A stretch of DNA of 64,000 bases from Sinohyriopsis cumingii (taxonomy: Eukaryota; Mollusca; Bivalvia; Unionida; Unionidae), in the NCBI GenBank assembly GCA_028554795.2, contig JAPYKE020000278.1, positions 1 to 64,000 of the forward strand, written 5' to 3'. The notes under the pieces were generated by a model, which saw only the letters and a program-made list of their open reading frames with translations, was not told where the DNA came from and did not search any database. The position numbers and the translations under genes were made by a program. Shown here piece by piece: positions 9,814 to 11,715 of the stretch; position 1 is the stretch's first letter, and each line of letters begins with the position of its first letter.

Positions 9814-9855
9814 AGCCCTTTTCAGGGCTACCCAATACTCTAGAAAAGAAATAAC
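9814..9855 (+). terminator. Histone-type mRNA 3' end, copy 1
   Basis: Perfect 6-bp stem AGCCCT/AGGGCT around a TTTC loop (9814-9829), immediately followed by ACCCA, then purine-rich CTAGAAAAGAAATAAC about 11 bases later. This is the metazoan replication-dependent histone arrangement: SLBP-binding stem-loop, cleavage site and U7-pairing downstream element. Confidence 0.75.
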
Positions 9856-10187
9856 GATCGATTTGCCAATGTGTGTAGGTAGAGTAGTGTGAAAATAAAC
9901 ACTAACTCTTTATTAAAAAATGTGAGGGTATGTGTTTGTGTGTCTGTAAGTGCTTAAGTAAGTTGGTATGAATAGTAGATTAAAATCATGTTTTTTTGGT
10001 GTTTGAGGTGTATATTTGGAGTTAGATTGGATTGCTTTGCGTATGTGGATAGTCTATTGAAGTGATTTATAAAAAAATTTTAAAATAGTGATGGGTAGCA
10101 TAAAAAGTGAGTGAGTGTTTCTTTTAGGTCCGCGCGTTGTTGTTGCTTTTTGGTCATGATCTAAGTAAGATCAATTTTATGTTTTTA
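9856..10187 (+). other. Intergenic spacer between accessory cassettes 1 and 2
   Basis: The first 110 bases closely match 10,688-10,790, so the spacer was duplicated together with the stem-loop. Near 10,127 is a truncated copy of the promoter block end (GTCCGCGCGTTG) followed by the imperfect palindrome GATCTAAGTAAGATC, which recurs at 10,937. Confidence 0.6.
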
Positions 10188-10227
10188 GGGGGATGTTTTC
10201 CATCACGTCCGCGCTTTCAGTATAAAT
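10188..10227 (+). promoter_or_regulatory. 27-base promoter block, copy 2, with TATA box
   Basis: Block at 10188-10214 (one change from copy 1), then TTTCAG and TATAAAT at 10221-10227, 57 bases before the ATG. Confidence 0.7.
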
Positions 10228-10283
10228 TGAAACTCGCTCGGCAGTCTAGCTACCCTTGTTGATTGATCAACACCACCAGAAGA

Positions 10284-10616
10284 ATGAACACCAGAACAGT
10301 GAAACTGTTAGAACTCCAGATGCACCTGGAATATGCCAGGCGCATACTAAATGAACTGGCCGCGGAGGCCATTGTCGAAGAAGCAAGAATGAAAGAGGAG
10401 GAGGAAAGAAGAAGAAAAGAAGAGGAGGAGAGAAGAAACAAAGAAGAGGAGGAGGAGGAGGAAAAGGAGAGAAGAAGAAATTTCAGAATCCCAGAAACCG
10501 AAAATTGGGATTCTGAAGCCACATATCCTGCCTCTGCACTCCCAAGAAGAAAGGTGAAAGAAGACTGGGGAAGAAGATGCGTGTGTGGCGCCAGGCCAGG
10601 AAGGTGCAACCATTAG
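10284..10616 (+). CDS. Accessory ORF 2, charged coiled-coil protein with histone-type 3' end
   Basis: Of 110 residues. A Leu-rich N-terminal helix is followed by a 50-residue Glu/Lys/Arg stretch with strong helix or coiled-coil character, a short acidic piece and a Cys-containing C-terminus (CVCGARPGRC). Not recognised. Its length, promoter block, and a stem-loop 29 bases after the stop parallel the neighbouring cassettes, though the proteins are not evidently homologous. Low complexity makes any similarity search unreliable. Confidence 0.5.
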   Translation: MNTRTVKLLELQMHLEYARRILNELAAEAIVEEARMKEEEERRRKEEEERRNKEEEEEEEKERRRNFRIPETENWDSEATYPASALPRRKVKEDWGRRCVCGARPGRCNH

Positions 10617-10645
10617 ATAGGTGCATCTGGAGTTCAAAAAAAAAC

Positions 10646-10690
10646 AGCCCTTTTAAGGGCTACCCAATACTCTAGAAAAGAAATAACGAT
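10646..10690 (+). terminator. Histone-type mRNA 3' end, copy 2
   Basis: Stem AGCCCT/AGGGCT with loop TTTA (10646-10661), then ACCCA and the same purine-rich element CTAGAAAAGAAATAAC. The loop differs by one base from the canonical TTTC. Confidence 0.7.
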
Positions 10691-10889
10691 CAATTTGCCA
10701 ATGTGTGTAGGTAGAGTAGTGTGAATATAAACACTAACTCTTTTTAAAAAATGTGAGGGTATGTGTTTGTGTGTTTGTGTGTTTGTGTTTGTAAGAGCTC
10801 AGGTATGTTTGTGTGAATAGTAGATTATGGGTTTCTTAGCGTATGTGAAGAGTATAATTTCGGTTTTATTATATGAAATGAGAAAAGTA

Positions 10890-11006
10890 GGGGGATGTTT
10901 TCCTTCACGTCCGCGCGTTGTTGTTTCTTTGGTTATGATCTAGGTAAGATCAATTTTATGTTTTTAGGGGGATGTTTTCCTTCACGTCCGCGCTTTCAGT
11001 ATAAAA
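10890..11006 (+). promoter_or_regulatory. Tandem promoter blocks 3 and 4 with TATA box
   Basis: Two identical 27-base blocks at 10890-10916 and 10967-10993, 77 bases apart; the second is followed by TTTCAG and TATAAAA (11000-11006). Between them is GATCTAGGTAAGATC, a short palindrome that also resembles a splice donor, and TTTTTAG just before block 4. Confidence 0.7.
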
Positions 11007-11057
11007 CTAACAGTGTTGGTCATTGGAGCCCATTCTACGGAATAAGCAAACAAGAAG

Positions 11058-11510
11058 ATGCCAGCAGCTTCAGCTTTATACAACGATCTTATGGGAAGTT
11101 GGTATTGGATGGTAGATGGATTGAGTGTAGCAGAAAGGGTTGAACAGGAATGGAGGTATGCAGTGACAAAAGACTTCGTCTCAAGACAAGTAACCAGCCC
11201 CCACTTATCCGTAAATATTGTAAAAGAAATGATAGAGGATGAGGAGAAGAGAATCAGAGGTTTAATTAACCCACCGTATGTGAAAGTGGGTAAGTTAAAA
11301 GAAGCAATAGATCATGTGACGAGTGCAAGGTGCTTTCTAGAAGACATTGTAGAATGGACAGATTGGTGTTTCGCGAAGTGGGGGTTAGAAAAACTTAAGA
11401 AAGCTGAAGAACTAATGAGGAATGTGCTGACCGAAGAGGTCAAGAAGATCAAAGAAAAGTGGTCAAAGGAAAGAAAAGAAGAAGAAAATAGAAAAAAATG
11501 GATGAACTAG
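11058..11510 (+). CDS. Accessory ORF 3, unrecognised Trp-rich helical protein
   Basis: Of 150 residues. Six or more tryptophans (WYWM, EWRY, EWTDWCF) in a helical, acidic-to-basic protein ending in Lys/Glu-rich KERKEEENRKKW. No known domain recognised. It has the shared promoter block 5'. Its last codons overlap a second ORF, and the stem-loop lies after that ORF, so the two probably form one bicistronic unit. Confidence 0.55.
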   Translation: MPAASALYNDLMGSWYWMVDGLSVAERVEQEWRYAVTKDFVSRQVTSPHLSVNIVKEMIEDEEKRIRGLINPPYVKVGKLKEAIDHVTSARCFLEDIVEWTDWCFAKWGLEKLKKAEELMRNVLTEEVKKIKEKWSKERKEEENRKKWMN

Positions 11511-11653
11511 AAAAACTGAACACAAACTGGATGAAAATTCAAGAGAAGTTCCGGGCCATGGGCCACCCGGACTGGATGCCGGAAACAGAAAAGAAGAAGA
11601 AGAAAGGAATGATGGACAAAATAAGAGGATGGTGGAAAAAGTTAAGAAGTTAA
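11498..11653 (+). CDS. Short overlapping ORF 3b, cationic amphipathic C-terminus
   Basis: Of 51 residues in a different frame, starting within the last codons of ORF 3. It has an acidic N-terminal half, an HPDWMPE turn, a KKKKK patch and a C-terminal IRGWWKKLRS that looks like a membrane-binding amphipathic helix. It ends 21 bases before the third stem-loop, the distance typical for histone mRNAs, which supports its being a translated cistron. No homologue recognised. Confidence 0.45.
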   Translation: MDELEKLNTNWMKIQEKFRAMGHPDWMPETEKKKKKGMMDKIRGWWKKLRS

Positions 11654-11674
11654 AAGAAGAAGAAAAAACCCAAA

Positions 11675-11715
11675 GGCCCTTTTCAGGGCCAGCCATATTT
11701 CTCGAAAAGAGATAG
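11675..11715 (+). terminator. Histone-type mRNA 3' end, copy 3
   Basis: Stem GGCCCT/AGGGCC with TTTC loop (11675-11690), preceded by CCCAAA and followed by AGCCA, then CTCGAAAAGAGATAG. This copy is closest to the metazoan histone consensus, including its 5' flank and an AAAGAG-type downstream element. Confidence 0.8.

Follow-up and report, generated by a model that had tools for sequence, protein, structure and literature searches.

Analysis of a 64,000-nt window from the bivalve Sinohyriopsis cumingii (assembly GCA_028554795.2, contig JAPYKE020000278.1, positions 1 to 64,000 of the forward strand) gave good support for the view that genes of a Maverick-type mobile element, although not histone genes, carry histone-type 3′ signals. 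In animals, SLBP binds the stem-loop of the histone mRNA, U7 binds the histone downstream element (HDE), and CPSF73 cleaves between the two (PMC7026596), so that the mature mRNA ends a few nucleotides past the stem and carries no poly(A) tail (PMC1924863). It is quite probable, judging from the DNA, that transcripts of the Maverick accessory genes are processed at such ends by the SLBP/U7 machinery of the host. A first-pass annotation of the window had proposed that three accessory genes of a Maverick-like element end in histone-type signals, and the covariance scores, sequence determinants, spacing, conservation, and gene context all agreed with that proposal.

Both strands of the whole window were scanned against Rfam 15 with cmscan, and matches were reported up to E = 10. 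The Histone3 model (RF00032; gathering score, 34 bits) matched only three sites, all on the + strand: copy 1 at 9809–9854 (stem-loop 9814–9829; 31.0 bits, E = 6.4e-5), copy 2 at 10641–10686 (stem-loop 10646–10661; 31.1 bits, E = 5.6e-5), and copy 3 at 11670–11715 (stem-loop 11675–11690; 35.6 bits, E = 1.2e-6). One of the three sites, copy 3, reached the gathering score (35.6 versus 34 bits) and is classed as a member of RF00032; copies 1 and 2 are classed as RF00032-like. The covariance check had been suggested in the first-pass annotation, and it recovered the sites at the places claimed there, with stems, loops, and flanks exactly as described. No other histone-type signal was detected with RF00032 up to E = 10 anywhere in the window, including a second mobile element at 21947–38152. 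Under criteria that were chosen once the sites were already known, a TTTH loop closed by a perfect 6-bp stem was counted eight times in the window against a mean of 1.2 in 300 dinucleotide shuffles. Among these were four stems with at least four GC pairs (shuffle mean, 0.067), three with an A-CCA-like flank in addition (shuffle mean, 0.0067), and three that also had AAAAGA downstream (none in 300 shuffles). Since these criteria were set post hoc, the E-values from Rfam provide a fairer measure.

The three copies were compared with the determinants recognized by the processing machinery. Each consists of a 6-bp stem with a 4-nt loop (TTTC or TTTA), an ACCCA context (copies 1 and 2) or an AGCCA context (copy 3), and a downstream purine element. 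The hairpin predicted for each 27-mer folded as expected, at -9.0, -9.1, and -11.4 kcal/mol for copies 1, 2, and 3, respectively. Stem position G7, described as the sole base read by SLBP through base-specific hydrogen bonds (G7-Arg181; PMC10388802), was G in 3/3 copies. All three likewise retained the U-A pair that closes the loop and, within the loop, bases U1 and U3, which have been named as important for SLBP (PMC6827988). The purine core AAAGAR of the HDE began 16 nt past the stem in every copy. Copies 1 and 2 read AAAGAA there; copy 3 has AAAGAG, which is also the mouse HDE core that pairs with U7 (PMC7026596). Copies 1 and 2 also carried AAC immediately 5′ of the stem, a feature present in C. 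elegans histone mRNAs as well (PMC1924863). Covariance score, determinants, and spacing thus bear out the view that stem, loop, flanks, and downstream purine element fit metazoan histone 3′ processing signals.

Conservation between the copies was assessed by ungapped identity over the 45-nt block containing stem-loop and HDE and over 60 nt of flank on each side. Copies 1 and 2 were identical at 44/45 positions of the block and at 57/60 positions downstream, with 20/60 upstream. They look like recent duplicates, and such near-identity means that they are not independent. Copy 3 matched copy 1 at 33/45 block positions (upstream, 21/60; downstream, 19/60) and copy 2 at 32/45 (upstream, 20/60; downstream, 19/60), and the best match of its block elsewhere on the + strand of positions 1–12000 was 23/45. 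The single stem pair that differs between the copies, A-U versus G-C, was altered on both sides. Because copy 3 has the signal in common with copies 1 and 2 and its surroundings are not shared, the comparison argues either that the signal has been under selection or that one and the same functional part was acquired separately.

The signals terminate three compact units of one design, each composed of a promoter-like repeat, a TATA-like box, an ORF (open reading frame), and a histone-type 3′ end, with no evident introns. The promoter-like repeat, of the form GGGGGATGTTTTCC(T/A)TCACGTCCGCGC (family D6), was found on the + strand at 9325–9362 (copy 1, GGGGGATGTTTTCCTTCACGTCCGCGCTTT...), 10188–10225 (copy 2), 10890–10927 (an extra copy with no TATA box after it), and 10967–11004 (copy 3), and a degenerate fifth copy with 63% identity to the reference was found at 10109–10146. 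Its exact 9-mer CGTCCGCGC occurred in the four copies at 9325, 10188, 10890, and 10967 and nowhere else in the window. TATAAA followed the repeat in units 2 and 3; the TATA-like site of unit 1 (GACTTTAAG at 9355) was degenerate and was picked by eye. In all three units this site lay 59–64 nt 5′ of the ATG, with no intervening ATG.

The accessory ORFs, all on the + strand, encode 120 aa with polyglutamine (ORF 1, 9418–9780, starting at the first ATG after the TATA-like site), 110 aa rich in E, R, and K (ORF 2, 10284–10616), and 150 aa (ORF 3, 11058–11510). ORF 3 was predicted to be all-helical with low confidence (mean predicted local distance difference test score [pLDDT], 60.1). A 51-aa ORF (11498–11653, + strand) overlaps ORF 3 in another frame. 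The two meet at an A7 run (region 11485–11653), which could be a signal for a -1 frameshift joining them or, just as well, a sequencing or mutational indel; the two frames were kept separate in the analysis. The stems began 33 nt after the stop of ORF 1, 29 nt after that of ORF 2, and 21 nt after that of the 51-aa ORF. The first-pass annotation had given the same three distances, and these were right; the third stop, however, is that of the 51-aa ORF and not that of the 150-aa ORF 3, whose stop at 11510 is 164 nt from the third stem.

No convincing family was found for ORFs 1–3 in Pfam, PHROGs, or NCBIfam. No histone family was among the matches of ORFs 1–3 in Pfam, nor among those of ORFs 1–3 and the 51-aa ORF in NCBIfam and PHROGs. 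A match of ORF 2 to phrog_10099 (E = 0.0061) was not believed, nor were matches of ORFs 1 and 2 to assorted Pfam and NCBIfam models (E = 0.006–0.07), which fell far under the cut-offs. The best sequence relative of ORF 3 in the PDB had an E value of 0.22, and the LxCxE motif was present in 0/4 accessory ORFs. When local alignments between the accessory proteins were compared with 300 shuffles, none of the shuffles scored as high as ORF 3 with ORF 1, four did so for ORF 3 with ORF 2, and nine for ORF 2 with ORF 1. The 51-aa ORF did not beat the shuffles in its alignments with the other three (70, 116, and 89 of 300 as high). A common origin of the three accessory proteins is not claimed because their sequences are rich in K, E, R, and Q.

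The distribution of poly(A) signals differed along this region. On the + strand, AATAAA occurred at 9188, 9806, and 9894, with no further copy before 13652, and ATTAAA occurred at 9912 and 9979, with no further copy before 12134. With AATAAA absent from 9900–13651 and ATTAAA from 9985–12133, a canonical poly(A) signal is therefore lacking for units 2 and 3 up to the point where the element probably ends. The AATAAA at 9188–9193, which follows the protease-position ORF and precedes a GT-rich stretch, likely serves the core block as a conventional poly(A) signal.

The element that carries the units encodes two proteins typical of Mavericks/Polintons on the + strand, namely a Pox_A32-type packaging ATPase (883–1626; 29.5 bits versus a cut-off of 22.8) and a retroviral-type integrase with an rve domain (52.1 bits) and a chromodomain (Chromo, 32 bits) at 3795–4904. 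An adenain-like protease at 8530–9078 (+ strand) was a weak match (Peptidase_C5, E = 0.0078, 16.3 bits, under the cut-off of 21.3). The genes run from the integrase through a minor-capsid position, a small ORF, and a large-capsid position to the protease, as in the second module of vertebrate Mavericks (PMC8097293), with further ORFs at 4910–5329 and 8018–8503. The capsid and minor-capsid names were assigned solely from this order. The capsid-position ORF (6540–8012) had no capsid match in the Pfam, PHROGs, and NCBIfam searches (the NCBIfam run used 6756–8012), and the predicted fold of its 6756–8012 part was unreliable (pLDDT, 32.6). This fold and that of ORF 3, both made from single sequences, were too poor for a structure search. 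An ORF of 316 aa at 1681–2631 is very basic (isoelectric point, 11.95) and rich in K, R, S, and P, and it perhaps encodes a DNA-condensing core protein.

In vertebrate Mavericks, accessory genes are described as flanking the core, the second module has the order integrase to protease, and the commonest end motif is (AGT)2//(ACT)2 (PMC8097293). Five imperfect repeats of approximately 45 nt, perhaps subterminal, were found on the + strand at 11797–12010 (family D5), and ACTACT stands at the end of this array at 12002–12007 (+ strand). Only one other ACTACT, at 12419, was present on the + strand of positions 1–13000. The element probably ends at this ACTACT, at 12007, and with its end placed there the three units would make up the right accessory region. 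The left part of the element seems to extend beyond the window, in which neither PolB nor the left end is seen. The same account of vertebrate Mavericks reports that the two modules face the centre in most of them, and that in X. tropicalis both are on one strand and accessory regions are seemingly absent (PMC8097293).

Several observations weigh against processing at histone-type ends. Copies 1 and 2 are approximately 3 bits under the RF00032 gathering score, have A-U instead of G-C at the stem base, and carry AAAGAA instead of AAAGAG in the HDE. The 164 nt between the stop of ORF 3 and the third stem exceed the usual distance in histone genes. Unit 1 has AATAAA at 9806 (8 nt 5′ of the stem) and at 9894 (65 nt after it), in addition to ATTAAA at 9912 and 9979, and it could be polyadenylated through these surrounding sites. 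Poly(A) signals are also found in the neighbourhood of histone genes; those of C. elegans are seldom if ever used (PMC1924863). Codon statistics support the coding of the ORFs weakly at most: in ORFs 1–3 the annotated frame was the best of the three forward frames with in-frame scores that were all slightly negative, a reverse frame of ORF 1 scored higher, one of ORF 3 scored about equally, and another frame of the 51-aa ORF scored higher than its own. No relatives of the capsid-position, minor-capsid-position, integrase, and ATPase ORFs were found in IMG/VR viral contigs, and none of the capsid-position ORF in prokaryote genome contigs; neither collection is well suited to finding elements that reside in animal genomes, and negatives there say little. 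Histone-like stem-loops did occur in IMG/VR, at seven loci for GGCYCTTTTCAGRGCCA and four for GGCYCTTTTAAGRGCCA. None of these 11 loci reached the RF00032 cut-off, and they are therefore taken as chance occurrences. The stem variant of the window with an ACCC flank and the promoter motif were each found zero times in IMG/VR.

The signals could also be fossils without a role in expression, left by the capture of a host histone 3′ end or by a captured histone gene in which other sequence took the place of the coding part. Host histone genes would be the obvious source, and copying alone accounts for the likeness of copies 1 and 2 as recent duplicates. Against this explanation, copy 3 retains stem-loop and HDE amid near-random flanks, and its changed stem pair is compensated. 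The position of all three signals, behind ORFs that have promoter repeats, is moreover the right one, and no AATAAA follows units 2 and 3 before 13652. We consider the fossil explanation unlikely. The hairpins might instead serve some other purpose, for example as general terminators or as signals in the DNA for replication or packaging, with convergence as the source of their likeness to histone ends. A DNA role would need neither an HDE at +16 nor a position after each ORF, and the loop, G7, cleavage context, and fixed-spacing HDE all fit RF00032; what speaks for such a role is that the three hairpins cluster close to one end of an element that is probably linear. Convergence is very improbable on this evidence.

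A further explanation takes the three units as host genes beside a Maverick, forming a novel host family with histone-type ends. The boundary of the element rests on one end only because the window does not reach the left terminus or any target-site duplication, and ACTACT is a common 6-mer that is suggestive only by its place after the repeat array. However, the units share a strand with the protease-position gene, which they directly follow, and stand before the array that ends at ACTACT, a motif with only the two occurrences at 12002 and 12419 on the + strand of positions 1–13000. It also speaks for host genes that a protease beside a terminal accessory region is unusual for most vertebrate Mavericks, although X. 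tropicalis provides a case with both modules on one strand (PMC8097293). Host genes of this kind are quite unlikely, and they would still mean a non-histone use of the signal.

The units were compared with known systems. They resemble metazoan replication-dependent histone genes in their compact tandem arrangement, the lack of evident introns, the short 3′ untranslated region, the TATA boxes (2/3), the 6-bp stem, the 4-nt loop, the ACCCA context, and the purine HDE AAAGAR at +16. Unlike histone genes, their ORFs match no histone family and their carrier is a virus-like mobile element, and copies 1 and 2 are further set apart by the A-U stem base and by scores that miss the Rfam cut-off by 3 bits. 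The element shares with Mavericks/Polintons and adintoviruses the Pox_A32-type ATPase, the integrase with rve and chromodomain, a gene order running from integrase to protease, accessory genes that lie beyond the core, and the ACTACT end. It differs from most vertebrate Mavericks in having its ATPase and integrase modules on the same strand and in a protease end that points toward the terminus (PMC8097293). A virus-borne link to the histone system is also known from bracovirus H4 and giant-virus histones, but those viruses carry histone proteins, whereas the element carries mRNA 3′-end signals only. In potato spindle tuber viroid, loop 27 of the pathogen RNA has been modelled on the histone stem-loop (PMC6827988); this likeness is confined to the loop, the extended stem is absent, and the setting is a plant.

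According to several papers, no animal mRNAs other than those of histones belong to this type (PMC6303110, PMC12775136, PMC1924863, PMC12819152). TCF15 mRNA is reportedly bound by SLBP (PMC3022624, citing Townley-Tilson 2006), and a histone-type 3′ end is not mentioned in the available text of that source. The term "stem-loop" was absent from the accessible text of the papers searched on Mavericks, adintovirus-related elements, and double-jelly-roll viruses, and both "stem-loop" and "polyadenyl" were absent from that of a review of viral histones (PMC9145170). In the accessible text of the open-licence literature, no virus or transposon with histone-like mRNA ends was found described, which is an absence from those sources and not proof; the closest cases there were the viroid loop and TCF15 mRNA. 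The first-pass annotation had known of no Maverick or adintovirus with such ends, and none was found within the same literature. The present case is best described as a known mechanism in a setting for which no description was found there, and a function of the signals is likely.

The second mobile element in the window (21947–38152) has perfect 310-bp terminal inverted repeats (AGCAGCAGAGGGG...) with GAGGT, 5 bp long, directly duplicated at its two ends. It contains genes for a double-jelly-roll capsid (34893–36233), a Pox_A32 ATPase (22250–23002), and an rve integrase (23460–24323), in addition to an ORF of 1181 aa with a helicase domain (24473–28018) and an HNH endonuclease ORF (28379–28915; HNH_3, 63.6 bits). 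These features suggest a recent insertion of a polinton-like virus. An ORF of this element at 32974–33984 matched the N-terminal domain of the phage T7 tail fibre (PF03906; E = 8.9e-6, 25.9 bits versus a cut-off of 25.2), which is odd there. Long tandem arrays were also present at 19200–20640 and 51671–52870, with units of approximately 22/23 bp and 41 bp.

A mechanism can be proposed for the Maverick-type element. The three intronless-looking units between the protease-position gene and the probable right terminus would be transcribed from the shared promoter repeats, and their transcripts would be bound by SLBP and cut after the stem-loop by the U7 small nuclear ribonucleoprotein and CPSF73 of the host. 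The resulting mRNAs would be poly(A)-minus and would encode small non-histone proteins. Stem-loop recognition and mRNA stability have been tied to S phase (PMC5011920). Stabilization and translation of the mRNAs may accordingly fall mainly in S phase, the time at which SLBP is present and a DNA element has need of host replication; entry of the transcripts into the SLBP/U7 pathway would thus time their expression to host replication. Since the core block probably uses the ordinary poly(A) signal at 9188, the type of 3′ end would split two classes of genes. On balance, we lean towards a Maverick-type virus with a polyadenylated core class and an accessory class of non-histone genes whose stem-loop ends are coupled to S phase through SLBP and U7.

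To our knowledge, this would be the first protein-coding use of the histone 3′ end outside histones in animals. If the proposed processing is true, three non-histone genes of a virus-like element break the rule that such ends belong to histones only, and the element would have a viral route that ties gene expression to the host S phase without poly(A). The units would also provide a natural substrate for probing the requirements of SLBP and U7. Finally, replication-linked functions are hinted at for the uncharacterized accessory proteins of Mavericks.

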